Of a stretch of DNA of 64,000 nt, positions 6,601 through 29,982 are shown piece by piece. The DNA is from Nocardia sputorum. Lineage in GTDB: Bacteria > Actinomycetota > Actinomycetes > Mycobacteriales > Mycobacteriaceae. The position numbers were made by a program, and so were the translations under genes. The notes below the pieces were generated by a model. It was given only the letters and a program-made list of their open reading frames with translations. It did no database searches and was not told where the DNA came from. The stretch covers positions 6,820,001 to 6,884,000 of the forward strand of contig NZ_AP026978.1 of NCBI RefSeq assembly GCF_027924405.1. The letters are read 5' to 3'. How positions within the stretch are numbered: position 1 is the stretch's first letter; every line of letters starts with the position of its first letter.

Positions 6601-6712
6601 AGACGGATGGTAGCCCGGGCCACGCCGCGACGCGCTGGATCGCGGCCGGTCGGGACCGGTCAATCCGCACAGCCCGGGGCGGGGTGATTCCAACACCGCT
6701 ACTCTGGTTCTC
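6601..6712. promoter_or_regulatory. divergent pair of leaderless promoters
   Basis: Reading left, TACCAT (6612–6607) is followed by 6 nt and the GTG at 6600. Reading right, TACTCT (6700–6705) is followed by 7 nt and the GTG at 6713. Both are TANNNT -10 boxes at the distance expected when transcription begins at the start codon. Neither gene has a Shine–Dalgarno sequence. Confidence 0.7.
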
Positions 6713-7132
6713 GTGCGAATTCAGCGGCAAGTTGTCGACTACGCCCTCCGGCGCCGGTCGCTGCTGGCTGACGTCTATGCGGGCCGGGTCGATGTCGCCG
6801 AGGTGTGTGATGCGAATCCTTATCTCTTGCGTGCGGCGAAGTTCCACGGCCGGGGTAGCGAAGTCACCTGCCCCATCTGCCGGAAGGAACAACTGACCCT
6901 CGTATCCTGGGTCTTCGGCGACGGCCTCGGGCCGGTCGCCGGATCGGCTCGCACACCCGAGGAGCTTGCGCGACTCGCCGAGACGCGCGAAGAATTCTCG
7001 GTTCATGTCGTCGAGGTATGCCGGACGTGCAGCTGGAATCATCTGGTGCAGTCCTATGTGCTCGGTTCCGCGCCGGCGCCGCCGCGCCGCCGCACCGGGA
7101 CACGCGCGAACCGGCGCACTGCCGCCGAATGA
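6713..7132 (+). CDS. DUF5318 protein with zinc-ribbon cysteines
   Basis: A 139-residue cytoplasmic protein that corresponds in position and sequence type to Rv0049, the gene before ponA1 in mycobacteria. Two cysteine pairs, CPIC and CRTC, are about 50 residues apart and probably hold a zinc ion. The N-terminus is a helix-rich DYALRRRSLLADVYAGR segment and the C-terminus is basic. It starts with GTG directly behind a TACTCT box. Function is unknown; its fixed position by ponA1 suggests a link to cell-wall synthesis (inference). Confidence 0.82.
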   Translation: MRIQRQVVDYALRRRSLLADVYAGRVDVAEVCDANPYLLRAAKFHGRGSEVTCPICRKEQLTLVSWVFGDGLGPVAGSARTPEELARLAETREEFSVHVVEVCRTCSWNHLVQSYVLGSAPAPPRRRTGTRANRRTAAE

Positions 7133-7228
7133 AGTGCCTGGGTCATCCCCGTCGGCTGACTCGGGGAGCAGGCACGCGTCCGCCGCGGTGACGACTACCG
7201 CTGATAGCCACCTGGACCGCTACGAGTT

Positions 7229-10009
7229 ATGGAGATCTTGTCAGTGAATTCGCCCTACGAGCCCTACGGCGATGAGCCACATGGCGGTCGTCCTCCGCAG
7301 AGTTCACGTCCAAGTCCCAACCCGTACCAGAATCCCCGTCCCGGGCCGCCGCCCGGCGCCCGTCCGGGTCAGCCGTCGGGTGGGCGTCCCGTCCCCGGCG
7401 AGCCGCGCGGGCCGCAGCCGCCGCGCCGCCCCGGCCCCCCGCCGAACGGGCGACCGCCGCAGGGCGGCCGTCCGCCCCAGCCGGGCCGTCCGCCGCAGCC
7501 GAACCGCGGCGTGCCCACCGGCGGCGCTTCCGGCCCCCAGCAGACCCAGCGGATCCAGCGGCCCGGCTCGCTGACCGAGGCGGTGGCCGAGCGCGACCGG
7601 CGCGGTCCCAGCACCGGCCCGCGTCCGGCCACCGGTGGGCGTCCCGCGGTGGACCGTGATGGACGTCGCGTTCCCGGCAGCGGCCCGACCACGGGTGAGC
7701 GCAGGCAGGCCGCGGGCGGACCGCCGTCCGGCCCGCCGCCGCGCCGTGGCGGCGGCAACGGCTCCGACGGGCCGGGTCGGCGCCAGCCCGCGCAGAAGAA
7801 GAAGTTCCCGTGGCGGATCGTGCGCCGCACGCTCTACGTCATGATCGCGCTGGCCATCCTGGTGCCCAGCGGCATCTTCCTGGCCGCGTACACCACGGTG
7901 TCGGTGCCGCAACCGGGCGACCTGAAGACCAACCAGGTGGCGACCATTCTCGCCTCCGACGGCACGTCGGTGATCAGTAAAGTCGTCCCGCCGGAAGGCA
8001 ACCGGACCGACGTCACCATCGACCAGATCCCGCCGCACGTGCGCAACGCGGTGATGGCGGCCGAGGACCGGGACTTCTACACCAACCCCGGCTTCTCCAT
8101 CTCCGGCTTCGCGCGTGCGGCCAGGGACAACGTCCTCGGCAAGGAGAGCGCGGGCGGCGGCTCGACGATCACCCAGCAGTACGTGAAGAACGCGCTGGTC
8201 GGTGACGAACGCTCGCTGACCCGCAAGATGCACGAGCTGGTCATCTCGGCCAAGATGGCGCGGCAGTGGAGCAAGGACGAGATCCTCGCCGCGTACCTGA
8301 ACACCATCTACTTCGGTCGCGGCGCGTACGGCATCGACGCGGCGTCCAAGGCGTATTTCGGCAAGCCGGTGCAGGAGCTGACCGTCGCCGAGGGCGCCGT
8401 GCTGGCCGCCACCATCCAGTTGCCGTCCAGCCTCGACCCGGAGAAGAACCCGGAGGGCGCGAAGACCCGCTGGAACTACGTGCTCGACGGCATGGTCTCC
8501 CTCGGCAGCCTGAACACGGCCGAGCGGCAGGGCCTGCAGTACCCGCAGGTGGTCCCGCTCGCGTCGACGCGCGACAAGGAACAGGACTCCGGCCCCGAGG
8601 GCTTGATCAAGACGCAGGTGCTCAAGGAACTCGCCGCGGCGGGCATCAGCGAGCAGCAACTGAACACCTCCGGCCTGCAGATCACCACCACGATCGACCC
8701 GAAGGCCCAGCAGGCGGCCGTGGACGCCGTCAACAAGAACATGGACGGCGAGCCGGAGAACTTGCGCACCGCCGTGGTCTCCGTCGATCCGCGTACCGGC
8801 GCGGTGCGCGCTTACTACGGCGGCAACGACGGCCAGGGCTACGACTTCGCCAACGCGGGTCTGCAGACCGGTTCGTCCTTCAAGGTCATCGGCTTGGCGG
8901 CGAACTTGGAGCAAGGCATCCCGCTCTCGCAGATGTACGACAGCTCACCCATCACCGTGAACGGCATCAAGATCACCAACGTCGAGGGCGAGCAGTGCGG
9001 CATGTGCACCATCGCCGAGGCGCTGAAGCGATCGCTGAACACCAGCTTCTACCGGATGCAGCTGGACATGCAGAACGGTCCACGCAAGATCGCCGACATG
9101 GGGCACAAGCTCGGCATTCCGGAGACCATCCCGGGCGTGGGCAAGACACTCACCGAGCCGGACGGCTCCGGGCCCAACAACGGCATCGTGCTCGGTCAGT
9201 ACCAAGCCCGGCCGCTGGACATGGCGTCCGCCTACGCCACGCTGGCCGCCTCCGGCGTCTATCACGCGCCGCACTTCGTGACGAAGGTCGTGACCGCCGA
9301 TGGGCAGGTGCTGCTCGATCGGGGTGAAGTGGCCGGTGAGCAGCGCGTCTCGGCGGCGGTGGCCGACAACGTCACCGCCGCGATGAAGCCGATCGCCGCC
9401 TACTCCCGCAACCACGGGCTGGCCAACGGACGCGAATCAGCATCGAAGACCGGTACGGCGCAGCTCGGCGATACAGGGGAGAACAAAGACGCCTGGATGG
9501 TCGGCTACACACCCTCGCTGTCGACCGCGGTGTGGGTGGGAACAGAGCAGGGAGACCCCTTGCGGAATGCCAGTGGCGGCATGATCTACGGATCGGGCCT
9601 GCCGTCGGATATCTGGAAGGCCACGATGGACGGTGCGCTGAAGGGCACCACCAACGAGAACTTCCCGAAGCCCGCCCCTATCAAGGGTCAAGCCGGTGTG
9701 CCGGAGTGGTCAGCTCCCTACACACCGCCGTCCACGGTCGATACCCCGCTGCTGCCTCCGGTTGTGGTCGCACCGACGCAGGTGGAGATCCTGCCCGGCA
9801 TCACCATCCCGGTTCCAGGCGTCCAGCCCGCGCCGCAGCAGCAGCGCCCGCAGCAGCAGCGGGAGTCGGACTCGGGCCCGCTGCCCGGCCAGCCGGTGGC
9901 GCCGTCCGACGGCTCGTCGCCGACGGCCACCGGCTCACCGAGACCGGGCAACAGCGGCAACTCGAACAACGAAGGCACGACCGGAACCGCGCCGACACGG
10001 GGCCGGTAG
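7229..10009 (+). CDS. ponA1: bifunctional class A penicillin-binding protein
   Basis: It polymerises and cross-links peptidoglycan. In the 926 residues: a Pro/Gly/Arg-rich cytoplasmic tail (about 1–195), one membrane helix (about 202–224), the GT51 glycosyltransferase domain with catalytic Glu279 in AAEDRDFY and the GGSTITQQYVKN motif, then the transpeptidase with Ser549/Lys552 (SSFK), SLN at 602–604 and KTG at 740–742. A Pro/Gln-rich tail ends the protein. Position between the DUF5318 gene and a GT87-type gene matches mycobacterial ponA1 (Rv0050). An alternative GTG start lies 15 nt downstream. The long cytoplasmic tail is a likely site for phosphorylation or partner binding. Confidence 0.95.
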   Translation: MEILSVNSPYEPYGDEPHGGRPPQSSRPSPNPYQNPRPGPPPGARPGQPSGGRPVPGEPRGPQPPRRPGPPPNGRPPQGGRPPQPGRPPQPNRGVPTGGASGPQQTQRIQRPGSLTEAVAERDRRGPSTGPRPATGGRPAVDRDGRRVPGSGPTTGERRQAAGGPPSGPPPRRGGGNGSDGPGRRQPAQKKKFPWRIVRRTLYVMIALAILVPSGIFLAAYTTVSVPQPGDLKTNQVATILASDGTSVISKVVPPEGNRTDVTIDQIPPHVRNAVMAAEDRDFYTNPGFSISGFARAARDNVLGKESAGGGSTITQQYVKNALVGDERSLTRKMHELVISAKMARQWSKDEILAAYLNTIYFGRGAYGIDAASKAYFGKPVQELTVAEGAVLAATIQLPSSLDPEKNPEGAKTRWNYVLDGMVSLGSLNTAERQGLQYPQVVPLASTRDKEQDSGPEGLIKTQVLKELAAAGISEQQLNTSGLQITTTIDPKAQQAAVDAVNKNMDGEPENLRTAVVSVDPRTGAVRAYYGGNDGQGYDFANAGLQTGSSFKVIGLAANLEQGIPLSQMYDSSPITVNGIKITNVEGEQCGMCTIAEALKRSLNTSFYRMQLDMQNGPRKIADMGHKLGIPETIPGVGKTLTEPDGSGPNNGIVLGQYQARPLDMASAYATLAASGVYHAPHFVTKVVTADGQVLLDRGEVAGEQRVSAAVADNVTAAMKPIAAYSRNHGLANGRESASKTGTAQLGDTGENKDAWMVGYTPSLSTAVWVGTEQGDPLRNASGGMIYGSGLPSDIWKATMDGALKGTTNENFPKPAPIKGQAGVPEWSAPYTPPSTVDTPLLPPVVVAPTQVEILPGITIPVPGVQPAPQQQRPQQQRESDSGPLPGQPVAPSDGSSPTATGSPRPGNSGNSNNEGTTGTAPTRGR

Positions 10010-11913: not shown

Positions 11914-13482
11914 TCACCTGGTGCGCAAGAAACGCGCCTGCCGTTCCGGTTCCTGCGGCAGCATGTCCAGATCCAGCTGCCAGGCGCTACCGGTCCACGG
12001 ATCGAACAGTGGCGTGCCGTCGACGGTCGGCAGGTGGCGGCACGACTGCGACAGCATCGCCACGGTGGTGTCGGCCGAATCGGATTCGTTCGCGCCGACG
12101 ATCACGATGGACAGTCCGATCAGCTCGCCCCGCGTGATCAACGCGCCGATCCGCTGGGCGTCCGAACTCTGGTAGCCGTGCGGGAAATCCGCCGCCAACA
12201 GCACCCGATGCTCGGCGGGTGGCGTGAAGGCGCCACTCGTGTAGGCCAATTCGGCGAGTTCGGCCGCGTCGACCAACGCCTGCAGCCGCGCCGAGATCTC
12301 GGCGTGGTCGGTGATCGGAGGACCGTTCAGCACGGGAGCGAGCAGGCCGGTGAAGCCGCTGAACGCGTCGGTGAGATCGATGATGTCCACCAATGTCCGC
12401 CGTTGCGGCGCCGTGGCGAGCAGCCGCGCCAGCAGGGCGCCCACAACGGGCGCGACCGCGCGGGTCGATTCGGCATCGATCCACAGCGGCCGGTTCAGCG
12501 GCACCGGAACGCAATACGGGATGCGCAGCGTTCCCCGGTCGAGGGCGTACAGCTCGCCGAGCCGGATGCCGTCGCTCGGCGCGGGCGGCTTGTCCCAAGC
12601 CGGCGAGTCCCACGACGCCAAGGCGGGCGGCAGCACCCGGTCGGCCTCGGCGAGTTCGCCCCTCAGCTGTTCGGCGTCGCGCTCGTGGTTGTGCTCGGCG
12701 GTGCCGACGAGTTCGTCGTGCCGTTGCTGCGCGACGCGACGCGCCTGCTCGGCTTCGGGAGTGTTCCTGGTCGCGGGATCGGAGACGGCGAGCGACAGTT
12801 CGTTGTCCAGCCGCTTGGCCGCGTACTCCCGCGCCGAGACCAGCGCGGCGGCCGACCGCGCGGCGTCCTCGAACACCATCCACAGCCGCTCCAAGCCGTG
12901 ACCGACCTCCAGCGGCGCACCGGCGGCGGCGATCTGCGCGTCACCGGCCAGTGGGCCGGCCATGGTGTGCGTGCCGGGCTGCCCCGACTCCGTGGAGGAA
13001 CCGTCGACCTCGACGCCGTGCGCCGTGAGCAGCACGGCCAGCCCGCCCGCGTAGCCTTGGCCCACCGCGCGCAGCTTCCAGGCCGGGCCGCGCCGGTACA
13101 CCTCCAGACAGATCAGCGCCGTCTCACCGGACGACGGCGTGATCGCGAACTCCGCGGTCACGCCGCCGTTCTCGGACAACGTGGCGGTGACCGGCCCGAG
13201 GCCGTCCGCCCGCGCGGGGGCGGACGGGTCGGCGCTCACCACCAGCAGCACGGCCTTCGCGTCGGCGCGTACCTCGGTGAGCGTGATCGTGACCCCGTCG
13301 GCGGCCAGGGCCACCCCCGGCGCGGCGGGCTGGTTGTAGAAGACGAAATCGTCGCTGGAGAAAACCTTCAGGTTCTCGGCGACCACCAGCGCGGAAACAT
13401 CGAGGGCAGCCTCGGCTTTCGCGCTGAAACGAACGACCTCACCGGTCAATGGGATGTTCTGACCGGCCTGCAGTTGTATCAC
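11914..13482 (-). CDS. TerD-domain protein fused to an FtsK-like segment lacking Walker A
   Basis: The 522-residue protein opens with a divergent TerD beta-sandwich (about 1–165, ending VGQGYAGGLAVLLTAHGV). A helical, charged segment follows (about 200–280, probable coiled coil). The C-terminal part contains PLWIDAEST, LLARLLATAPQRRTLVDIIDL and LLAADFPHGY, which resemble the inactive half of FtsK/SpoIIIE-like translocases. No GxxGxGK[ST] loop is present and the protein ends where an active half would begin. TerD proteins bind calcium, but the acidic residues seen in the 28-kb TerD are not obvious here. GTG start; it lies 27 bp after the next TerD gene and is co-transcribed with it. Role inferred: scaffold in the Ter stress system. 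Confidence 0.75.
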   Translation of the reverse strand: MIQLQAGQNIPLTGEVVRFSAKAEAALDVSALVVAENLKVFSSDDFVFYNQPAAPGVALAADGVTITLTEVRADAKAVLLVVSADPSAPARADGLGPVTATLSENGGVTAEFAITPSSGETALICLEVYRRGPAWKLRAVGQGYAGGLAVLLTAHGVEVDGSSTESGQPGTHTMAGPLAGDAQIAAAGAPLEVGHGLERLWMVFEDAARSAAALVSAREYAAKRLDNELSLAVSDPATRNTPEAEQARRVAQQRHDELVGTAEHNHERDAEQLRGELAEADRVLPPALASWDSPAWDKPPAPSDGIRLGELYALDRGTLRIPYCVPVPLNRPLWIDAESTRAVAPVVGALLARLLATAPQRRTLVDIIDLTDAFSGFTGLLAPVLNGPPITDHAEISARLQALVDAAELAELAYTSGAFTPPAEHRVLLAADFPHGYQSSDAQRIGALITRGELIGLSIVIVGANESDSADTTVAMLSQSCRHLPTVDGTPLFDPWTGSAWQLDLDMLPQEPERQARFLRTR

Positions 13483-13509
13483 CGTATCCGCCCCGCTGTC
13501 CGCCGCCGG

Positions 13510-14916
13510 TCAACCGTTGACGAGGAACCGGCCGAGCTGCGGCACCGCCTCACCCGGATGCTTGGCCTGGAAGCCCTCACCGAGCGCCTGCAGTTTCCAG
13601 TCGTTGCCCACCCGGTACAGCTTCGACATCGCCATCGCGGTGAACGGCATGCCCCCGGCGAGGGTGTACCTGGCCAGTTCGCCGTTGTTCGTCCCGTCGA
13701 CCAAGCGGCAGAACGCGTTCTGCACCTGCTCGAAAGTGTGGCCCTTGTAGGAGGTGACGATGAACACCAGCGTCGTGATGTGCGCCGGGACGCGGGTCAG
13801 GTCGACCAGGATCATCTCGTCGTCGCCCTCGCCCTCGCCGGTGAGGTTGTCGCCCTGGTGGCGGATCGAGCCGTCCTTGGAGGTCAGCTGGCCGTAGTAG
13901 GCGACGTCGACCGGGTTCATGTCGGCGAACATGATGACCGACGCGTCGAGGTCGATGTCGACCGTGCGGTTGCCGAACATACCGCGGCTGCGCACCGGAT
14001 CCCAGCCGAGACCCATCTTGACGAAGGTCAGCGCGGCGCCTTCCTTACGCAACGTGACCCGCTGGCCCTTGACCAGGCTGACCGGTCGGTCCTTACTCAG
14101 GCTGACTTCCGCGGGTTGTTGCGGCTGCTGCTGCGGCGGCTGGCCGGGCTGCTGGTAACCGGGACCGGGCGGCGGCGGGTAACCAGGGCCGGGAGGCGGG
14201 TAACCAGGACCGCCCTGCGGCGGCTGGCCGGGGCCGGGCGGCGGGTAGCCGGGACCAGGGGGCGGGTAACCGGGACCGGGCGGCGCGTACTGCGGCGACT
14301 GCTGCTGGGTCGGGTACGCCGGGGTGGTCGGCGGCGGGTAGTTCGGCGGCTGCTGGACCGGCTGCTGCGGAGGCGGCGGGGCCTGGGCCGCCTGGGCCGC
14401 CTGGGCAGGAGCGTCGTCGACCGTCACACCGTGATCGGTGACCAGCGCGGCGAAACCGCCGGCGTACCCCTGTCCGACCGCGCGCACCTTCCACGCGCCC
14501 TGGCGGCGGTAGAGCTCGAGCGCGATCACGATCGACTCGGTGTTCAGTCCTTCGATCCGGTACTCGTACAACTGGTTACCGGCCGCGTCCGACACGATCG
14601 CGGTGGGGGCGGGGAACTGGCCGAAGTTGCTGTTCGCGTCGTCCAGCGTGATCACCGCGCGAATCTGATCGATGTCGGCGGGCACCGCGTGCAACGACAC
14701 CGCCAGCGACGCGGGCTGTCCCGCGGGGGCGGGCTGCAGGTTGACGCCGGGACCGCTGGGCTGGTTGAAGAAGACGAAGTCGGCGTCGGAACGGACCTTG
14801 CCCCGCTCGGTGACCAGTAGTGCCGACAGATCCGCCGGAGCCGAGAGCTGGACGGAAATCACCACGTCGTTGGTGGCCAGCGGACCGTTCTGGCCCTTGG
14901 CGAGTGTTGCGGACAA
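13510..14916 (-). CDS. double TerD-domain protein with Pro/Gly/Tyr-rich linker
   Basis: A 468-residue protein with a divergent TerD domain (about 1–170), a low-complexity linker of repeated PPGPGYP units (about 180–290) and a canonical TerD domain that keeps the calcium-site patterns IDLDASV and [13 protein letters not shown]. The start is a TTG at 14914–14916: GAAGGG lies just upstream and a TAGAGT box (14957–14952) gives a leader of about 28 nt, while longer versions would start upstream of that promoter. The first domain is related to the TerD part of the downstream fusion protein. It faces the AIM24 genes across a divergent promoter. Confidence 0.8.
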   Translation of the reverse strand: MSATLAKGQNGPLATNDVVISVQLSAPADLSALLVTERGKVRSDADFVFFNQPSGPGVNLQPAPAGQPASLAVSLHAVPADIDQIRAVITLDDANSNFGQFPAPTAIVSDAAGNQLYEYRIEGLNTESIVIALELYRRQGAWKVRAVGQGYAGGFAALVTDHGVTVDDAPAQAAQAAQAPPPPQQPVQQPPNYPPPTTPAYPTQQQSPQYAPPGPGYPPPGPGYPPPGPGQPPQGGPGYPPPGPGYPPPPGPGYQQPGQPPQQQPQQPAEVSLSKDRPVSLVKGQRVTLRKEGAALTFVKMGLGWDPVRSRGMFGNRTVDIDLDASVIMFADMNPVDVAYYGQLTSKDGSIRHQGDNLTGEGEGDDEMILVDLTRVPAHITTLVFIVTSYKGHTFEQVQNAFCRLVDGTNNGELARYTLAGGMPFTAMAMSKLYRVGNDWKLQALGEGFQAKHPGEAVPQLGRFLVNG

Positions 14917-15043
14917 GTTCGACCCTTCGCTTGTCGGTGCGTTCGCCTGACACTCTACGAGAAACGCGTTGCGCGCCGCTCGTACTGAACGGCCGCGCTG
15001 GCCCGACACCCGAGAAAGCATCGGTTAGGGTGACGGCACGCAG
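14917..15043. promoter_or_regulatory. divergent promoter between the TerD and AIM24 operons
   Basis: TAGAGT on the minus strand (14957–14952) serves the TerD pair; TAGGGT on the plus strand (15026–15031) serves the AIM24 genes, 12 nt before the ATG at 15044. Sharing one promoter region suggests the two halves of the module are switched together (inference). Confidence 0.55.
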
Positions 15044-21150: not shown

Positions 21151-21549
21151 ATGACCGACCTGCTCGATATCGCCGAGGTCGGCGCGCAAACCGGCCTCGC
21201 CCCCTCCGCCCTGCGCTTCTACGAGAAGCGCGGTCTCATCGCAGCGACCGGCCGCAACGGCCTACGCCGCACCTACCACCCCGACATCCTGAACCGCCTC
21301 GCCCTCATCTCCTGCGCCCGAGGCGCCGGTTTCACCCTCGCCGAAATCGCCCGCTTCCTACGCGCCTCCCCCTCCGACGCCGAACTCCGCACCCGCATGG
21401 CGGAAAAAGCACGACAACTCGACGACGACATAGCCCGCCTCATCCGCATGCGCGACAGCCTCCGCCACGCCGCCACCTGCAACCACGACCCCCTGGTCGA
21501 ATGCCCGGACTTCAAGTCGAACTTCGAGAGTGCCGCCGAATCGGTGTGA
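21151..21549 (+). CDS. MerR-family transcriptional regulator
   Basis: A 132-residue regulator. The winged helix (DIAEVGAQTGLAPSALRFYEKRGLI, then GRNGLRRTYHPDILNRL) is followed by a coiled-coil dimerisation helix, and a C-terminal CNHDPLVECPDF with two cysteines and a histidine that could bind metal or sense redox. AAGGAGACGAG gives a strong ribosome-binding site. It lies divergent to the MBL gene and 24 bp ahead of the CYTH gene, with which it may be co-transcribed. Confidence 0.92.
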   Translation: MTDLLDIAEVGAQTGLAPSALRFYEKRGLIAATGRNGLRRTYHPDILNRLALISCARGAGFTLAEIARFLRASPSDAELRTRMAEKARQLDDDIARLIRMRDSLRHAATCNHDPLVECPDFKSNFESAAESV

Positions 21550-21573
21550 GGCTGCGAAGAGAGGATCGGTCAC

Positions 21574-22143
21574 ATGATCGAGGCCGAAATCAAGGCTCGA
21601 GTCCGTGACGTCGAGTCAGTGCAGGCTACGCTGGCGGCGCGGAGCATGGGTCAGCGCGCGAAGTATGAGGACACTTACTACGACCTGCCGGACGAGCGAT
21701 TGTCTTCGGAGGGCCGTGAGCTGCGGTTGCGGACGATCACTACGGGCAATGGGCGGCGATCCCTGCTGACCTACAAGGAACCCGCGGTCGACACGAGCAG
21801 TGGATCGAAGCCGGAATACGAAACCGAGGTGGCCGACCCTACGGTGCTCGACTCCGTGCTACGCGGTATCGGCCTGAAAGAGCTGGTCGTCCTTGAAAAG
21901 CGTTGCATCAACTATCGATTCGAGTCCGAAGGACGCGACCTGCTGGCCACACTGGTGACGGTCCCCGAGTTGGACGGCACGTTCATCGAGCTGGAAACCA
22001 TCGTGCCCGAAGCGGAACTGTCGGAAGCGCTGGAGCTCGTTCGGTCCACACTTCGTCAACTCGGAATCGCCGACGGCGATCTCACCACCGAGCAGTACAC
22101 GGATGCCGTACTTACTACGCGGCGGAAGCCGGAGCTCCCTTGA
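21574..22143 (+). CDS. CYTH-domain protein (class IV adenylate cyclase-like)
   Basis: A 189-residue single CYTH domain with the signature ExExK (IEAEIKAR), the paired basic strands RELRLRTI and LLTYKEP, and a late acidic strand (FIELETIV). CYTH enzymes form a beta tunnel that binds triphosphates and two metals, acting as CyaB-type adenylate cyclases or as triphosphatases. The two cannot be told apart here. It follows merR by 24 bp. Its 3' end overlaps the convergent HAD gene by 29 bp. Confidence 0.88.
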   Translation: MIEAEIKARVRDVESVQATLAARSMGQRAKYEDTYYDLPDERLSSEGRELRLRTITTGNGRRSLLTYKEPAVDTSSGSKPEYETEVADPTVLDSVLRGIGLKELVVLEKRCINYRFESEGRDLLATLVTVPELDGTFIELETIVPEAELSEALELVRSTLRQLGIADGDLTTEQYTDAVLTTRRKPELP

Positions 22144-22966
22144 TGAACCAGTTGATGATCTCCTCGCCCGCGAGGATGCCGGTGGCGCGGGTGATGGTGA
22201 GGTTGGGGTGGGTCCAGTTGAGGTGTTCGAGTTCGCCGTGGCGGGGGCGGATGGCGGAGTCGGCGGCGCGCAGCATTTCGGCGTCGAGGGCGCCGTCGCC
22301 CGCGGCGAGTGTCCGGGCCTCGTCGGCGAGTTCTCCACTTTCCCAGAGGCGCTTGCGCACCTCGGCGACCGCGCGGCTCTTGCAGACGACCTGCGGCATG
22401 GTGTAGATCTTGCGACCCTGCTGAGACGCGGACCAACCGCGTGAACGACACCAGTCGTCCCACTCCGCCAAGAACCCCTCGGGCACCTCCTTCGGCTTCA
22501 CCACGAGGTAGCAGAACAAATGGTCGGCCACGCGGAACTTCGTGACCCAGGAGTCATCGATGCGGGTGTGCAGTTCCTTGCTCACTTCGGACAGCGTGGC
22601 GCCCCCCGCGCGAACCTTGGCGTCGATGGCGATGCGCCAGCTCAGGTCGGGCACGCCGTCGACCAGGATGTTCCCGCCGTTGCTGGTGATCGCGTAGCGC
22701 CACGGCGCTCCGGGCAGCCGGATGCGGTCGAACTGCTTGATCGTGCGGGTGGTGGTGGGAACGATGGCGGCGGGTTCGGTCAGGGTCTGCATCCGCAGCG
22801 CCGCGGTGGTGGTCATGAACGACAGCGGCGCCCCTTCCAGATGCTCCACGCAGACCGTCGGCACGTCGGCGGTGGTGCTGAAGGCGTTACGCGAGTAGAT
22901 CATCGTCCGGTCCAAATCGGTCGCGATCAGCGCACGTCTTCGGTGGGCTCTCGGAGATAGGTTCAC
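22115..22966 (-). CDS. HAD-family hydrolase of the Ter biosynthetic operon
   Basis: A 283-residue haloacid-dehalogenase-fold phosphatase. The nucleophile motif is LIATDLDRTMIYS, motif III includes the Lys in VVCKSRAVAEV, and motif IV is AAGDGALDAEML. A cap of about 110 residues lies between. In the described Ter modules a HAD phosphatase removes phosphate from the phosphoribosylated product (inference). GTG start 22964–22966 overlaps the stop of the upstream phosphoribosyltransferase gene (GTGA). It is the last gene of the operon. Confidence 0.85.
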   Translation of the reverse strand: MNLSPRAHRRRALIATDLDRTMIYSRNAFSTTADVPTVCVEHLEGAPLSFMTTTAALRMQTLTEPAAIVPTTTRTIKQFDRIRLPGAPWRYAITSNGGNILVDGVPDLSWRIAIDAKVRAGGATLSEVSKELHTRIDDSWVTKFRVADHLFCYLVVKPKEVPEGFLAEWDDWCRSRGWSASQQGRKIYTMPQVVCKSRAVAEVRKRLWESGELADEARTLAAGDGALDAEMLRAADSAIRPRHGELEHLNWTHPNLTITRATGILAGEEIINWFIKGAPASAA

Positions 22967-24102
22967 TGCTGCACGTCCTTGATCAATCCCATGCACGAAT
23001 ATGCCAGGTCGGGGACGACGTCGACCGGGACGCCCCGGGCCGCGGCGAGCAGGCGGATGTGCGCGTGCTCCGGTGCGTCCGCCTCGCGCACCAGCACCCG
23101 CCACGGCACCCGCCGCAGCAGCACCCGGGTGGTCTCGCCGACGCCGGGTTTCACGAAGTTCACGCTGGCGATGCCGTACTGCTCGCGCACCTGCTGCACG
23201 GACGCCCAGCCGGTCCAGGTGGGCGTCCGGTCGCTCGCGCGAACTCCGGCCACCTCCGCGGGCACCCGGTCGCGGATCGCGTCGAAGGCGCCGCTCACGG
23301 TGTCCAGCAGACGCCCGGACACGTCGTCACCGGCCAGTTCGCGGTAGAACTTGGCGCCGTGGAAATCGCCGGGGCCGATCAGCGTGTCGTTCAGGACGGT
23401 GCGCGAGACCAATCCGGACACCGTCGAATTGAGGCACGCGGAGGCGATCAAGAAGTCGTCGCGCGTGCCGTAGGTGCGCACGCAGTGCCCGGGATCGGCC
23501 AGCACCGCCAATTCGTCGTCGAACCGGGGGCCACCGGCGGCGTGATAGGCGTCCAGCGCCTCGGTGAGCTCGCGGGTGATCGCCCCTTTGCCGGTCCACC
23601 CGTCGACGAACACGACCGAGGACGGATCGTGATGCTCGGCCAGATAGTCCAGCGCCACCGCGTCGATGCCGCGATCCCGCACGATCGACACCGCGTAGTG
23701 CGGCACCTCGAGGCTCGGACGCCGCGCCCGCAGCCAGCGGCGCATCAGAATGCCGACCGGTGTGCCCGCACGGGCCAGCGACACCAGCACGATGTCGTCG
23801 CCGCGTTCGGCGACGACCAGTTCCGACACGGTCGCCACGGCCAGCGCGAGCCGCTCGGCGCTGGCCGCGAGCACCTCGTCGAACAGCGATCGGTACGCCG
23901 CGTCGGGCTGATACTCGATCGGCAGCGACTCCGCGTAGTGCGCCTTCCCGGCCTGTATCCGCCGTTCCCGCTCGACGATGTCGGCTTCCAGGTCGACGTC
24001 CGACAGATCCTTCAGCAGCCAGGAGACTTCCTCGGCCGCGTAGGAGCCGAACTGCGGTCCGTGCAGGGGGGTGGGTAGCGCACCCACCTCGGTACTCGTC
24101 AT
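22963..24102 (-). CDS. StiP-like phosphoribosyltransferase with C-terminal PELOTA-like domain
   Basis: A 379-residue protein of the family annotated PRTase_1 or 'cysteine protease StiP'. The N-terminal part carries DIVLVSLARAGTPVGILM and VVFVDGWTGKGAITREL, the latter resembling a PRPP loop. It also has conserved Cys residues (GHCVRTYG, ASACLNSTVSGLVSR). The last 100 residues match the PELOTA-type RNA-binding fold (SVNFVKPGVGETTRVLLRR). The protease name in databases is doubtful; a phosphoribosyltransferase role fits the operon. ATG start overlaps the upstream stop by 4 nt. Confidence 0.82.
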   Translation of the reverse strand: MTSTEVGALPTPLHGPQFGSYAAEEVSWLLKDLSDVDLEADIVERERRIQAGKAHYAESLPIEYQPDAAYRSLFDEVLAASAERLALAVATVSELVVAERGDDIVLVSLARAGTPVGILMRRWLRARRPSLEVPHYAVSIVRDRGIDAVALDYLAEHHDPSSVVFVDGWTGKGAITRELTEALDAYHAAGGPRFDDELAVLADPGHCVRTYGTRDDFLIASACLNSTVSGLVSRTVLNDTLIGPGDFHGAKFYRELAGDDVSGRLLDTVSGAFDAIRDRVPAEVAGVRASDRTPTWTGWASVQQVREQYGIASVNFVKPGVGETTRVLLRRVPWRVLVREADAPEHAHIRLLAAARGVPVDVVPDLAYSCMGLIKDVQQ

Positions 24103-25559
24103 ACCCGGCTCCCGTCCGACTCCGTGCGTTCGGCGTGCAGCCGCCGCGGGTCCGCCTCCGGCAGCACCGCCAGCAGGACGTCGGCCCCGGAAGCGGTCAG
24201 CACATCGATCAACCCGTGCTCGGCCGTCAGCTCCGCGGTGTCGGCGGGGGAGTCGACCACGACGACGAGCACCGGGTCGGCGGCCGGGCCGTCGCCCTCG
24301 GCGCCGCTGTCGACACCGTCGTCCGAGATCGCGACGGCATCGCCGTGCGGCGAACCAGCGAGCAGCGCGCCCAGCCCCGCGAGGTCGGCCTCGAACAGGT
24401 CGAGCGAGGTCGCGGGCCACTGCGCGTTGTACAGATAGCGCGGCTCGGCGTCGCCCGGCTCGGGCGCGACGAACCGGAACCCCCGCCGCAACGGATACCC
24501 CGGCTCGTCCAGCACGTACGCGGGCGACCGCGTGGTGGTCTGGAAACGCGTGGGCGTCCCCGACTCGGCGAGCAGCGCCGCCAGCCGCAGGGGCAGGTAC
24601 ATGAGCTCCTCGTGCCCGAGCACGATGACGGCCCGGCCGGGGAAGTCGGCATCGAGCCGGGCGGTCAGCGCACCTCCCGCGTCCAGCAGCGCGGCCTCGA
24701 ACGCGCCGGTGTCGGAGGCCAGGATGCCGTGCCTGCCGCCCTCCGGCACAGCGGTCGGCCACGGGAGTTCGACGCGCCCGAACGAACCGGTGTGCCCGGC
24801 GGTCGGGTTCAGCCGAGGCTCGGGGAGTGCGCCGACCGCGTCCACCAGTCCGTCGGGCAGTGACGCGCGGCCGGTGGCGAGGCACACGGTGTCGATGCGC
24901 GCCCCGAGTTCGGCAGCCACGGAGTCGAATTCGGCCCGCTGGGCATCGGTGCGCAGATCCACCAGCGACGCGAGCACATAGTGCGTGCGGGGCGCGAAGG
25001 CGTGCAGTGCCCGCACCGCGTCGATCGCGGTGTCACCGGTGGAGATCTCGTCGTCCACCAGCACCAGCGGCAGATCGTTGACGAAGATGCCGGCCGGCGC
25101 CGGTTGCAGCAGGTGGGAAGTGGCGTGTGAGTGCCCCTCCTCGAAACCGGCGAGCGTCGTCGCGTGCGGCACCGCGCGCCGGGTCGAATGCAGGTAGCAG
25201 CTCGCGCCGATCCGCGCGGCCACGCAATGGCCGAGCCCCGTCGCGGTCTCCGCGAATCCGAGCACTACGGCTTCGCGCGCACCGAGCACCGCTCGAACCA
25301 GGTCGCCCAGCTGATCGCCCGCGCCGAGCACCACGCGCGGATCGGTGGGCAGGTGCTTGCCGAGCACGGTGGAGACCAGCAGATGCGCCCGGCGCCGATT
25401 GTTGTGGCGAACGCCCGGTTGCACCAGCGCGGTGATCGGCAGCCGCGCGGAACGCAGCCGCTCCGCGCCGCCTTCCGGATCGTGATGCAGCCCGATGCCG
25501 AGATTTCTTGTCGCCCAGAATATTTCGTTGTGACCGAATTCGGTCGAGGTCCGGCTCAT
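24099..25559 (-). CDS. phosphoribosyltransferase with TRSP domain
   Basis: A 486-residue protein. The N-terminal phosphoribosyltransferase domain has the PRPP-binding loop LVLVDDEISTGDTAIDAV and FAETATGLGHCVA. The C-terminal TRSP region contains GHEELMYLPLRLAALL, FQTTTRSPAY and RFVAPEP; the name comes from the Thr-Arg-Ser-Pro run visible here. It probably transfers a ribose phosphate to a base-like acceptor. ATG start overlaps the lyase stop (ATGA), and its own stop overlaps the next gene, so the four enzymes are translationally coupled. Confidence 0.86.
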   Translation of the reverse strand: MSRTSTEFGHNEIFWATRNLGIGLHHDPEGGAERLRSARLPITALVQPGVRHNNRRRAHLLVSTVLGKHLPTDPRVVLGAGDQLGDLVRAVLGAREAVVLGFAETATGLGHCVAARIGASCYLHSTRRAVPHATTLAGFEEGHSHATSHLLQPAPAGIFVNDLPLVLVDDEISTGDTAIDAVRALHAFAPRTHYVLASLVDLRTDAQRAEFDSVAAELGARIDTVCLATGRASLPDGLVDAVGALPEPRLNPTAGHTGSFGRVELPWPTAVPEGGRHGILASDTGAFEAALLDAGGALTARLDADFPGRAVIVLGHEELMYLPLRLAALLAESGTPTRFQTTTRSPAYVLDEPGYPLRRGFRFVAPEPGDAEPRYLYNAQWPATSLDLFEADLAGLGALLAGSPHGDAVAISDDGVDSGAEGDGPAADPVLVVVVDSPADTAELTAEHGLIDVLTASGADVLLAVLPEADPRRLHAERTESDGSRV

Positions 25560-26770
25560 ACGGTGACCAACGCCGTCAGCAGATCCACGAAGGACACTCC
25601 CTTGTTCGCCACGCCGAACACCCGTGCACGCAACAGCGTCTGCCGCGCCCAGCTGCGATGCGGCCGCATCTCGTTCATCTTGTTCCGGTAGCCGGAGGCC
25701 GCCACGCCGCCGACGTCCTCGCGCAGGATGTCCAGCGCGTCCGAGTACTCCTCGTGCGTCACCACCGACAGCGCGTGCACGGCGGCCACGTGCGACGGGT
25801 GGATCACCGTCTTGCCCTGGATGCCGTTGGCCCGGTCCAGCGTGATCTCCCGCAGCAAGCCGTCCAGATCCCGGCTCACCAGGTACTGCCGGAACGGCAC
25901 CGCGTCGGACTCCTCGAACGGCGCGGTCCGCAGCAACGGCCGGAACATCCGTTCGTGGTCGGCGAAGTACTCCCACACCGGTCCCGTGATGACGAAACCG
26001 GTGCCGTCCGCGCGCCCCAGGTAGTTCACGATGTCGGCGATCACGTCGGCGACCACGCGTACGTCGTAGATGGTCAGGTCGCGATCGCGCCGGATGCCGA
26101 ACGTCGAACACATGTCCGTCGCGCCGACCCGCACCGCGAGCACCCGGTCCCGGTGCGCGGCCAGCAGCGCCGCGATCTGGGTGAGCTCGTAATCGCGGGT
26201 CTCCCGGTGCACCAGCCCCGGCGACTCCAGCACCGGCATTCCGTACAGTGGCCGGTCCACCCGCTGGGCCGCCACGTTCAGCGCGTTGAGGTACTTCGGC
26301 CCGGTGACGCTGTCGAACTTCGGGAACACGAAACCGGTCAGCACCCTGGCACCCGGTCCGAGTTGCTCGATGAGCTCGGTGATCGTGTCCGCGTCGCGCA
26401 CCCGCACGAACAACAGCGGGTTGGCGTCATGGCTGCCCGCGAGCAGATCGAGCGCGGCGACGGTCTGCCGCTTGGCGTACTCGACCTCGTGATCGGCGAC
26501 CGCGTCTTCGAGGTCGATCACCATCGAACACACCCCGTGCTCGGCGCGCCTGCCGATCGTCAGCGCGAGATCGGGCCTGGTCGCCGGTGCGTACAGCGTT
26601 GCGCCGAGCCCGACCGCGAGCAGCTCACGATCGGTGTGGTCGTCGCCGAACGGTTCGGGCTGCCGGTGGAACAGTCGCCTCGCCTCCGGCCCGTGCAACT
26701 GCCGGAAGTGGCGCAGCGGCATTCGCTTCCGCAGGCAAACCTCCTGCTGGACGGCGATGCCTGCGGTCAT
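25556..26770 (-). CDS. HpcH/HpaI aldolase/citrate-lyase (CitE-like) enzyme
   Basis: A 404-residue TIM-barrel C–C lyase. The metal and substrate patterns are SMVIDLEDAVADHEVE (Asp/Glu pair), LFVRVRD, GFVFPKFDS, GMPVLESPGLV and VRVGATDMCSTFGI, ending KTVIHPSHVAAVHAL. CitE relatives cleave or form acyl-CoA or hydroxy-acid bonds with Mg2+. In Ter modules it is thought to supply or modify a precursor. The first 40 residues have an unusual basic composition. It lies 13 bp behind the helical protein gene and overlaps the next by 4 nt. Confidence 0.86.
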   Translation of the reverse strand: MTAGIAVQQEVCLRKRMPLRHFRQLHGPEARRLFHRQPEPFGDDHTDRELLAVGLGATLYAPATRPDLALTIGRRAEHGVCSMVIDLEDAVADHEVEYAKRQTVAALDLLAGSHDANPLLFVRVRDADTITELIEQLGPGARVLTGFVFPKFDSVTGPKYLNALNVAAQRVDRPLYGMPVLESPGLVHRETRDYELTQIAALLAAHRDRVLAVRVGATDMCSTFGIRRDRDLTIYDVRVVADVIADIVNYLGRADGTGFVITGPVWEYFADHERMFRPLLRTAPFEESDAVPFRQYLVSRDLDGLLREITLDRANGIQGKTVIHPSHVAAVHALSVVTHEEYSDALDILREDVGGVAASGYRNKMNEMRPHRSWARQTLLRARVFGVANKGVSFVDLLTALVTV

Positions 26771-26783
26771 CGTTGCCCCATCC

Positions 26784-28001
26784 TCATTCTCGTCGTGGTC
26801 CTGCTTGTCTTCTCATTCGATCCACTACCCCGGCTATGAATTCGGTGACGGCATCCAGTTCCGCCACATAGGCCCAGTAGTCGGGGTGACGCCCCGACAG
26901 TGTTTCGCTGATTCGGTCGATCCGCGCCGCTTGCGCGTCGAGCACCGAACCCCATTCGGCGACCAGCCCACGGCTCACCGCGAGCATTTGCGCGTCCCGC
27001 AACCGGAATCGTACGGCCTTGGCCTGTTCTTGCGGGTCGGACCGAATCGCACGCAGCAGGGTCAGCCGCTTGGTGACGGCGTCGACTCGCTGCTCGGCCT
27101 CGGCGAGGTACCCGCGCGCGGATGTGGTCAGATCAAGTGCTAACTCCGGATTGTTCTCTGCCGCCGCCGCACGCGCCCTGCCGAGGGCCGCGTCCGCGGC
27201 CTCGATGGCTCGCTGGCTTTCCCGCTCATTGTTAGCCAGATCGGCCGAACTCGCAGCATTGAACTCGCGCAGCAGCGCCGAGAACGCCTGCGGAACCCCT
27301 TCCGCCCTGGTCCGGACGGCGGCAAGGCGGGTTGTCACGGACGATATCGCGGTGTTCGCCGCCCCGGCCCGAGATGGGGCTTGCGCCAAGGCATCCGCCA
27401 GCTCACCGGTGGCCGTCTGTAGTCGGTTCGCGGCCTCCCGCACCGTGCTCGCGGGTGCGCCCGCACCCGCCGCCTCCAGTGTGACCAGCGCCTCATCGAC
27501 CGCGGCGGCGCGCTCGCGCACCGACGGATAGTGCTCGAACTCCGATTCGGCGGCCCGGCCGCGCACACCGGCCGCGGCAGCCTTCACCTGCTGCACCAGC
27601 TGCGGCACCGCGCCGAGCACGGCCACCGCCTCTTCGAACTTGCCCTGGTCGCCGCGGTAGAACTCGTCGACCGCGCGCGCCGCGTCGGTCAGCTGCCGTA
27701 CCGCGGCGTCGACGCGCTCCCGGCCCCGCGCGACCGGCGGGCCGCCCTGCTGCGCGGCCTCCAGCTCCGCGCTCAGCGTCAGGTAGACCTCCGCCGCCCC
27801 ATAACATCTGTGGCGCACCGCTTCCCAGCGCGCGCCGATCCGCCGCTCCGGGAAGATCTGCTCGGCGGCGTGCACTGCCGCGTCGGCCGCGCTCTGCCGC
27901 CGGTCCATGTCGAGGAACGCCGTCGCCAGGGTGGCGCGGGCGTGTTCGATCCACTCGTCGTTTCCCGACGAACGGAACCAACCGCGCCTGCGCCCTGCCA
28001 C
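26784..28001 (-). CDS. helical coiled-coil protein of the Ter operon, unknown function
   Basis: A 405-residue soluble protein, almost wholly Ala/Arg/Glu-rich and helical, with no membrane segment or enzyme motif. The N-terminal part (GNDEWIEHARATLATAFLDMD) is the least repetitive. The rest resembles coiled-coil proteins found in Ter gene clusters. GTG start lies 6 nt behind a TACCAT box, so this is the first, leaderless gene of the biosynthetic operon. A structural or scaffolding role is only a guess. Confidence 0.65.
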   Translation of the reverse strand: MAGRRRGWFRSSGNDEWIEHARATLATAFLDMDRRQSAADAAVHAAEQIFPERRIGARWEAVRHRCYGAAEVYLTLSAELEAAQQGGPPVARGRERVDAAVRQLTDAARAVDEFYRGDQGKFEEAVAVLGAVPQLVQQVKAAAAGVRGRAAESEFEHYPSVRERAAAVDEALVTLEAAGAGAPASTVREAANRLQTATGELADALAQAPSRAGAANTAISSVTTRLAAVRTRAEGVPQAFSALLREFNAASSADLANNERESQRAIEAADAALGRARAAAAENNPELALDLTTSARGYLAEAEQRVDAVTKRLTLLRAIRSDPQEQAKAVRFRLRDAQMLAVSRGLVAEWGSVLDAQAARIDRISETLSGRHPDYWAYVAELDAVTEFIAGVVDRMRRQAGPRRE

Positions 28002-28146
28002 GCCCCGATGGTAGGAGATGTTCCAGTTCGCCGGGGGTTGCGCCGGTTCCTACGCAAGTTCGCGGAAACCTACTACTGTCGTATGGCGTACCCGGCGATT
28101 CGGACATGCTGGGAACCAATGACGGACTATTGAAAGGGAATCCCGC
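28002..28146. promoter_or_regulatory. divergent promoter between the Ter biosynthetic operon and terD
   Basis: On the minus strand TACCAT (28013–28008) lies 6 nt before the GTG at 28001. On the plus strand TACTGT (28074–28079) is a candidate -10 for terD, giving a leader of about 60 nt that ends in GAAAGGGAA before the ATG. Co-control of both operons is inferred. Confidence 0.55.
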
Positions 28147-28722
28147 ATGGGTGTCAGTTTGTCCAAGGGCGGCAATGTCTCGCTGACCAAGGCGGCGCCT
28201 AACCTCACTGCTGTTGCGGTCGGCCTCGGGTGGGATGTGCGGACCACCACCGGTACCGACTTCGACCTCGACGCGAGCGCCATCGCGACCGGCGCGGACA
28301 AGAAGGTCCTGTCCGACCAGCACTTCGTCTTCTTCAACAACCTGCGGTCGCCCGATGGCGCGATCGAGCACGCGGGCGACAACCGGACCGGTGAGGGCGA
28401 GGGCGACGACGAGGTCATCAACGTCGACCTGGCGAACACCCCGCCCACGATCGAGAGCATCTTCTTCCCGGTCTCGATCTACGACGCCGACTCCCGGTCG
28501 CAGTCCTTCGGCCAGGTCCGCAACGCCTACATCCGCGTGGTGGACCGCAGCAACGGCGAGGAGCTCGCCCGCTACGACCTCACCGAGGACGCCTCGACCG
28601 AGACCGCCATGGTCTTCGGCGAGCTGTACCGCAACGGCGCGGAGTGGAAGTTCCGCGCGATCGGCCAGGGTTACGCCTCCGGTCTGGCGGGCATCGCCCG
28701 CGACTACGGCGTGAACGTCTAA
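28147..28722 (+). CDS. terD: TerD-family protein
   Basis: A canonical 191-residue TerD protein. It opens [15 protein letters not shown] and keeps the calcium-binding acidic clusters [10 protein letters not shown] and [19 protein letters not shown], closing with [18 protein letters not shown]. TerD proteins bind Ca2+ at the inner membrane and contribute to resistance to tellurite, phage and oxidative stress; the mechanism is unsettled. It is monocistronic, with a strong terminator behind it. Confidence 0.95.
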
Positions 28723-28741
28723 GGAACACTTCGCTGTTCGC

Positions 28742-28765
28742 AGGGGGCCCGGTGACGGGCCCCCT
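28742..28765. terminator. terminator after terD
   Basis: AGGGGGCCCG (28742–28751) and CGGGCCCCCT (28756–28765) form a perfect 10-bp stem with a GTGA tetraloop. Confidence 0.88.
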
Positions 28766-28881
28766 CGTCGTGCGACCCCAGGCATGCCGGCGCCCTGGGA
28801 GCGCGTTGGACAACCGGCGATCCAGCAGCCACGCTGGTAGCAACCGTCGCCGCCTCGTTATAACTCACGAAAGGTCCCAGC

Positions 28882-29982
28882 GTGGTCCTGCGCATATTCG
28901 GCATGTCCCTGGTCGTCACGGTGGTATCGCTCGTCGTCGCCCTGGTGTACGGCGGACCGACCGCCCTCGCGCTCGCCGCGATCCTCGGCATCCTCGAGGT
29001 GTCGCTTTCGTTCGACAACGCCGTGATCAACGCCACCGTCCTGGAGCGGATGAGCGCGTTCTGGCAGCGGATCTTCCTCACCATCGGCGTGCTGATCGCC
29101 GTCTTCGGTATGCGGTTGGTCTTCCCGCTGGCCATCGTGTGGATCACCGCCGGGCTGGATCCGGTCCGGGCCTTCGACCTGGCCCTCAACCCGCCCCCCG
29201 GCGACGCCCTGACCTTCCCGGACGGCAGCCCGAGCTACGAGAAGCTGCTCACCGACGCGCACCCGCAGATCGCGGCGTTCGGCGGCATGTTCCTGGCGCT
29301 GCTGTTCCTCAACTTCATCTTCGAGGAACGCGACATCACCTGGCTGAGCTGGCTGGAGCGGCCGCTGGCCAAGGCGGGCAAGCTGGACATGCTCTCCGTG
29401 GTGGTCGCGGGCACCGGCCTGATCCTCACGGCCGAGTACATCGCCGACGAAGCGCACCGCTCGACCGTCCTGGTGGCCGGCCTGCTCGGCATGATCACCT
29501 ACATCGCGGTGGACGGCCTCGGCTCCATGTTCCACACCGAGGAGCACACCGAAGGCGGCCCATCCGAGCTGGCCAAGGCCACCGGTAAGGCGGGCTTCTT
29601 CCTGTTCCTCTATCTGGAGGTGCTCGACGCGTCGTTCTCCTTCGACGGCGTGATCGGCGCGTTCGCCATCACCTCCGACCCGATCATCATCGCGCTCGGC
29701 CTCGGCCTGATCGGCGCCATGTTCGTCCGGTCGATCACGGTGTACCTGGTCCGCAAGGGCACCCTGTCGGAGTACGTCTACCTGGAGCACGGCGCGCACT
29801 GGGCGATCGGCGCGCTCGCGGCCATCCTGCTGGTCTCGATCGGCGTGCACATCAACGAGCTCATCACCGGCATGGTCGGCGTCGCGTTCATCGGCGCGGC
29901 GTTCATCACGAGCATCGTCCGCAACGGCCGAGCGGACGAGGAGGAACTGGACAGCGAACGAGAACCGACGCCGGTAGGCTGA
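28882..29982 (+). CDS. TerC/DUF475-family integral membrane protein
   Basis: A 366-residue protein with about 8 membrane segments. Two internally related signatures, LEVSLSFDNAVINA (about 38–51) and LEVLDASFSFDGVIGA, carry the acidic residues that TerC-like proteins use for metal handling. The length and a loop rich in Pro and Asp between segments place it nearer DUF475 than short TerC. TerC-family proteins are linked to Mn2+ efflux and to metalation of exported enzymes. GTG start with GAAAGG upstream. Confidence 0.88.
   Translation: MVLRIFGMSLVVTVVSLVVALVYGGPTALALAAILGILEVSLSFDNAVINATVLERMSAFWQRIFLTIGVLIAVFGMRLVFPLAIVWITAGLDPVRAFDLALNPPPGDALTFPDGSPSYEKLLTDAHPQIAAFGGMFLALLFLNFIFEERDITWLSWLERPLAKAGKLDMLSVVVAGTGLILTAEYIADEAHRSTVLVAGLLGMITYIAVDGLGSMFHTEEHTEGGPSELAKATGKAGFFLFLYLEVLDASFSFDGVIGAFAITSDPIIIALGLGLIGAMFVRSITVYLVRKGTLSEYVYLEHGAHWAIGALAAILLVSIGVHINELITGMVGVAFIGAAFITSIVRNGRADEEELDSEREPTPVG

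Follow-up and report, generated by a model that had tools for sequence, protein, structure and literature searches.

Can a Ter-linked metabolite pathway run without an ATP-grasp enzyme, and do its two predicted transferases then act as one unit? This question is raised by a five-gene operon in a 64-kb stretch of Nocardia sputorum DNA (the window), taken from a single-contig genome of 7.43 Mb. On the minus strand, the order is a helical protein of 405 amino acids (26784–28001), a CitE-like C-C bond lyase of 404 (25556–26770), a PRTase_2-TRSP phosphoribosyltransferase (PRTase) of 486 (24099–25559), a StiP-PELOTA protein of 379 (22963–24102) and a HAD phosphatase of 283 (22115–22966). On the plus strand, genes for TerD (28147–28722) and for a TerC-family membrane protein of the DUF475 branch (28882–29982) diverge from the operon across a spacer of 145 bases. 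We favor with moderate confidence the reading that the operon is an actinobacterial Ter module of ATP-grasp-less form, working as a ribosylation unit through transfer from phosphoribosyl pyrophosphate (PRPP) followed by dephosphorylation.

An earlier note on this DNA had likened the gene set to the Ter-linked module for a nucleoside-like metabolite, which Anantharaman, Iyer and Aravind reportedly predicted in 2012 and for which we know of no identified product. This assignment was borne out by Pfam domains and by plasmid gene lists. The lyase matched C-C_Bond_Lyase (PF15617) at E 7.5e-122, the PRTase matched PRTase_2 (1.6e-61) and TRSP (1.1e-29), and the fourth protein matched StiP (2.4e-105) and PELOTA_1 (1.6e-35), two domains carried together by all 240 homologues among the matches listed. 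The linked TerD matched PF02342 at 8.8e-84, the TerC-family protein was assigned by Pfam, and the HAD protein found the HAD of the Klebsiella Ter module at 3e-8. Modules on enterobacterial and Pseudomonas plasmids share with the window the PRTase_2-TRSP, StiP-PELOTA, C-C_Bond_Lyase and HAD genes beside TerD/TerC, as determined by Pfam for the Klebsiella proteins and from gene lists for the other plasmids. The Nocardia form differs from the plasmid modules in its gene order, in the helical gene at its front, and in the fusion of the two transferases in most relatives. Relatives of the TRSP-PRTase were found in 2,554 of 72,556 plasmid records. A Rhizobium phaseoli plasmid carries the TRSP-PRTase, StiP and HAD genes, and in the 18.5 kb covered there neither a lyase nor an ATP-grasp nor a TerD was detected; the lyase is thus not universal in the module. 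On the Pseudomonas plasmid pPUV-15, a gene annotated as a trypsin-like peptidase (6672–7811) lies between the ATP-grasp and PRTase genes, and a second HAD gene follows the lyase.

The lyase was detected at E <1e-50 in 78 of 98 sampled Nocardia genomes, and the window copy shares 95–99% identity with the lyases of the nearest Nocardia species among the matches listed. Within the best 80 of the 213 Nocardia loci found, the lyase, the helical gene and a TerD homologue were each present in all 80, accompanied by a TerC-family gene in 79, TRSP in 79, StiP in 78 and HAD in 77, where an absent gene may reflect a contig end. Across a phylum sample of 396 genomes, the lyase had matches at E 0.001 in 175, with 16 falling below 1e-100 and the next best at 1.3e-14. 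These 16 comprise three genomes of Nocardia itself, two from the family, and 11 from a second genus (g7). One Nocardia genome contains two Ter lyase copies on separate contigs (C361 and C277). A relative of the lyase, 30.8% identical over 84% of the query, also occurs in MT836648.1, an unannotated 15-kb record labeled 'Bacteriophage sp.' that could be a mislabeled bacterial contig.

Unlike the window, the Klebsiella, E. coli and Pseudomonas plasmid modules examined have an ATP-grasp gene preceding the PRTase gene (ATPgrasp_Ter by Pfam in Klebsiella). The window operon contains no ATPgrasp_Ter, as the earlier note had observed when it proposed a look elsewhere in the genome, and the Ter type is also absent from the whole genome, other ATP-grasp families not having been searched one by one. 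Two weak genome matches to PF15632 were rejected as housekeeping proteins, one a carbamoyl-phosphate synthase and the other a protein of biotin-carboxylase type. The Klebsiella ATP-grasp query had no match in the N. sputorum genome, in the 80 Nocardia loci (covered to some 10 kb as far as the contigs reach), or in the 15 phylum-sample loci, two of them from Nocardia. This query is sensitive enough for the unlinked ATP-grasps of g7, since it finds them at 1.1e-13 to 8.6e-21. None of the 80 Nocardia loci has a linked ATP-grasp, so that the shorter form, which the earlier note had suggested for the pathway, is a lineage trait. We take ATPgrasp_Ter as non-defining for the module because it is undetected in the Rhizobium locus and is unlisted in the portion of PMC7824862 available. 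Homologues of the Klebsiella DUF4236 and TerB proteins were likewise absent from the 80 Nocardia loci.

The operon had also been described as fully coupled, with a fixed stoichiometry implied by overlaps of 4 nucleotides (nt). The overlaps are exactly as claimed: ATGA is shared by the CitE stop and the TRSP start (25556–25559), ATGA by TRSP and StiP (24099–24102), and GTGA by StiP and HAD (22963–22966). Three of the four junctions are therefore coupled, the helical gene falling outside because it ends at 26784, a gap of 13 nt from the CitE start at 26770. Among bacterial gene overlaps, those of 4 nt are the most frequent, so their number alone is weak evidence and their conservation is the better test. 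The 4-nt CitE-TRSP overlap is kept in 77 of 79 Nocardia loci, and that of StiP and HAD in 40 of 77, with a 1-nt overlap in 10 more; the helical gene and CitE overlap by 4 nt in 5 of 80. The overlaps are less kept in g7, where CitE and TRSP share 4 nt in 4 of 11 loci and StiP and HAD do so in 3, the StiP-HAD overlap being 1 nt in the other 8. A consensus scan of positions 21500–29000 yielded no promoter-like site (0.4 expected) and no terminator-like site (2.8 expected), a result that says little because the window is 68% GC; in this weak test no internal promoter speaks against the operon.

The junction between the two transferases is more informative. TRSP and StiP share a single unbroken frame in 60 of the 78 Nocardia loci that could be scored and in all 11 g7 loci, so that the overlap at 24099–24102 marks the fusion point in most relatives. 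The window has them as two genes, as do 18 Nocardia loci and both loci found in the family's other genera. Each of these 18 split Nocardia loci contains an in-frame StiP start that overlaps the TRSP stop by NTGA (GTGA in nine, ATGA in seven, TTGA in two), and in 13 of these the StiP match starts within 6 nt of the NTGA start. A tree of the lyase with 93 rows places the window in a split clade of 14 rows with a Shimodaira-Hasegawa-like approximate likelihood ratio (SH-aLRT) support of 99. Fused and NTGA-coupled forms thus interchange, and this is the best evidence here for the transferases working at 1:1, going beyond what overlap alone can tell; on the basis of these sequences, it suggests that the two work as a single unit. 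Fixed stoichiometry, not implied by the overlaps themselves, is accordingly retained as a proposal for TRSP and StiP only. The overlaps could instead reflect plain compaction of an operon without any particular stoichiometry, as would befit so common a class and the patchy keeping of the StiP-HAD overlap in Nocardia and of the CitE-TRSP overlap in g7. We consider this less likely than not in view of the near-constant CitE-TRSP overlap in Nocardia, and of the finding that TRSP and StiP are either fused or have a 4-nt overlap available in every one of the 78 scored loci.

We also examined the PRPP loops of the transferases, whose loss the earlier note had named as a sign against its reading; both are kept in alignments. 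The loop of PRTase_2 (LVLVDDEISTGDT; 25029–25067, minus strand) has the canonical DD acids, which are found in all ten variants, together 97 of 97 aligned rows. The loop of StiP (VFVDGWTGKGAI; 23578–23613, minus strand) is identical in 96 of 98 rows, and the other two keep DGWTGKGAI. It has a single acid (DGWTGKG) where a type I phosphoribosyltransferase has two adjacent ones. The structural model of StiP is confident and matches PRPP transferases, predicting a PRTase fold for a family that NCBI and Pfam name a cysteine protease. Taken at its name, StiP would make the operon one PRTase plus a protease, and the alignment column at residue 207 of the window's StiP is indeed cysteine in 60 of 71 StiP proteins (40 of 41 actinobacterial, 20 of 30 proteobacterial). 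We hold this to be very improbable, as no cysteine is invariant among the 71 and the other cysteine columns are group-specific, while the DGWTGKGAI loop is invariant and no protease appears among the 50 fold matches shown.

The best solved structural match of the StiP model is CriT, the PRPP-dependent O-ribofuranosyltransferase of Bcs3 and Cj1432, which is paired with the HAD phosphatase CrpP. CriT is described as having D680 and E818 instead of the vicinal acid pair, which the StiP loop lacks as well. The systems differ in that CriT and CrpP share one polypeptide whereas the window HAD is separate, in that the five operon genes include no sugar-polymer gene, and in that StiP has an RNA-binding domain. 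Because of the fold match, an O-riboside becomes a serious candidate product too. In the classical view, phosphoribosyl transfer of the nucleobase type by both PRTases yields a signal that is an N-linked nucleoside or nucleotide, from which the HAD enzyme removes the 5'-phosphate and which TerD/TerB-type proteins sense. We regard it as quite possible, if short of an even chance. It is a published prediction, carried on in citing papers, nucleobase PRTases and HAD being listed as signal biosynthesis in PMC7824862 and the phrase 'nucleoside-like metabolite' being repeated in PMC12054061 and PMC8115787; in addition, PRTase_2 keeps its canonical loop, and PyrR/HGPRT rows stand close behind the top row among the StiP fold matches. 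It is harder to reconcile with the single-acid StiP loop, with an O-transferase as the top fold row, and with the five genes themselves, none of which resembles a nucleobase-making enzyme by Pfam.

The C-terminal PELOTA_1 domain of StiP (22978–23217, minus strand; 1.6e-35), of the L7Ae/Pelota RNA-binding type and with the motif GxxExTR, allows a further reading that we rate as improbable. Here StiP-PELOTA and PRTase_2 would constitute an RNA- or nucleotide-directed O-ribosyltransferase: the Pelota domain would present an RNA, or a nucleotide bound to RNA, with a hydroxyl that takes up ribose-5-phosphate from PRPP, the HAD enzyme would trim the phosphate, and TerD would read the product. If true, the outcome would be a stress-linked signal in the form of ribosylated RNA or a riboside, and the Ter 'nucleoside-like metabolite' would be an O-riboside whose synthesis needs no ATP-grasp step.

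The HAD protein resembles trehalose- and mannosylglycerate-phosphate phosphatases, and its HAD motif and catalytic residues are intact by alignment. It matched no Pfam family at E 0.01, the trehalose-phosphatase family included; it had a weak match to 6cj0 (E 3e-5), and its best NCBIfam matches were mannosyl-3-phosphoglycerate phosphatase models, far below the cut-off. The HAD encoded between TRSP and StiP in a Pseudomonas plasmid Ter module matches PDB 6d3v at E 5e-161 and contains exactly two cysteines, at 85 and 231. The available part of PMC6838324, which cites Cross 2018 FASEB J, describes the extra-chromosomal trehalose-6-phosphate (T6P) phosphatase (TPP) of P. aeruginosa as an active enzyme and names cysteines 85 and 231. 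From the sequence and the cysteine positions, PDB 6cj0, 6d3v and 6d3w are probably this TPP, and one member of the HAD family has therefore very probably been solved and found active already. In the literature collection searched, no paper joined tellurite resistance with trehalose-6-phosphate phosphatase or tellurium terms with ribofuranosyltransferase. The match of the Pseudomonas Ter HAD to a solved and assayed TPP raises the alternative that the HAD is a plain TPP and the module part of trehalose stress metabolism, with the PRTases serving a separate function. This we think unlikely: the P. aeruginosa TPP is homologous to the window HAD yet only 24% identical to it, the window protein matches no Pfam family, the five operon genes include none for trehalose synthesis, and HAD adjoins the PRTases in all 15 of the phylum loci and in 77 of the 80 from Nocardia.

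In the ribosylation unit that we favor, PRTase_2-TRSP and StiP-PELOTA, both using PRPP, would act as one 1:1 complex that moves ribosyl-5-phosphate from PRPP to an acceptor, after which the HAD phosphatase would take off the terminal phosphate. Such a logic of transfer and then dephosphorylation would be shared with CriT/CrpP in ribofuranosyl polymers and with T6P synthase/phosphatase. The CitE-like lyase may supply or trim the acceptor. The helical protein might scaffold the enzymes, perhaps near a TerC membrane complex, a role that is a guess. Its model is all-helical and confident (predicted local distance difference test, 92.2; predicted template modeling score, 0.71). No Pfam family was assigned to it; the model points weakly to EzrA/spectrin-like repeats. 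The helical repeat architecture is like that of the EzrA cytoplasmic domain (4uy3, 4uxv), and the two relatives that were tested each have a sub-threshold Pfam EzrA match (2.1e-6 and 0.0018); the best fold match, 4uy3, is at the noise level for helical proteins, and we do not claim that the protein is EzrA. A correspondence with the DUF4236 protein of enterobacteria, which has a similar length, was rejected (hhalign probability 0.2%). In g7, relatives of the helical protein are encoded close to the operon, on the strand opposite to it; 7 of the 11 loci have the full-length gene, one has it truncated at the locus edge, and in three it was not found. Expression of the operon would be tied to TerD/TerC through one divergent control region. 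A block of the spacer at 28046–28117 is conserved, with 63 of 72 columns more than 75% identical compared to 11 of 44 in the preceding stretch (alignment of 73 spacers, from the window and 72 of the 80 loci), a pattern that fits a possible joint control of the operon and terD-terC.

Several findings weigh against the ribosylation unit in its ATP-grasp-less form. Strong ATPgrasp_Ter matches lie elsewhere in 7 of the 11 g7 genomes, and matches of E 1e-8 or better occur in 20 of 98 Nocardia genomes, 12 of them strong (below 1e-31) and unlinked. Of these 12, three lie 0.7–1.0 Mb from the lyase and nine on another contig; the lyase is present in all 12 genomes and also in 66 without a strong match. 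An unlinked ATP-grasp could serve in trans; the step is either dispensable or, in a minority of genomes, supplied in trans. The 18 kb around the unlinked g7 genes held no match to a Ter module, TerD, TerC or TerB at E 1e-3 in any of the seven. Their neighbors are conserved, and they possibly belong to a separate pathway. As to fusion, the StiP match begins 36–51 nt past the NTGA start in 5 of the 18 split loci, so that the start there is only inferred; the fused/split label requires four changes on the lyase tree, of which well-supported branches force only two. As to fold, 8a0m and PyrR rows reach the same Z, Foldseek gave its sole E <0.001 to the unrelated IscS and placed PRTases at E 0.004–0.02, and the StiP profile searched against solved chains recovered no CriT chain, all 21 matches being of L7Ae type and confined to the PELOTA part. 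As to the phosphatase, T6P activity may not carry over to the window HAD at 24% identity, nor need this protein be of CrpP type.

The operon is met by a convergent gene for a CYTH/class IV adenylate cyclase-like protein (21574–22143, plus strand), which overlaps the 3' end of HAD by 29 nt and has homologues in only 7 of the 80 Nocardia loci. Three more TerD domains, two of them within one 503-amino-acid protein, are encoded at 13021–15021 on the minus strand adjoining an AIM24 gene, and the whole genome has 12 TerD domain matches. TelA was not found in the N. sputorum genome, and no Rfam family reached its gathering score between 15 and 36 kb of the window.

The Ter module itself was already known; what is added here is the fusion and fission of its transferases, a predicted PRPP-transferase fold for StiP, the link of its HAD to a probably solved TPP, and the ATP-grasp-less form. 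The locus represents a natural form of the module without the ATP-grasp enzyme and draws attention to enzymes fused by nature, whose purification and assay may be simpler. It also offers a corrected fold, at the level of a model, for StiP, which goes by the name 'cysteine protease', and connects the module to a phosphatase that has very probably been solved and assayed. With the ATP-grasp-less form, the fused enzymes, the StiP fold and the solved phosphatase together, the question of what the module makes would become directly testable.

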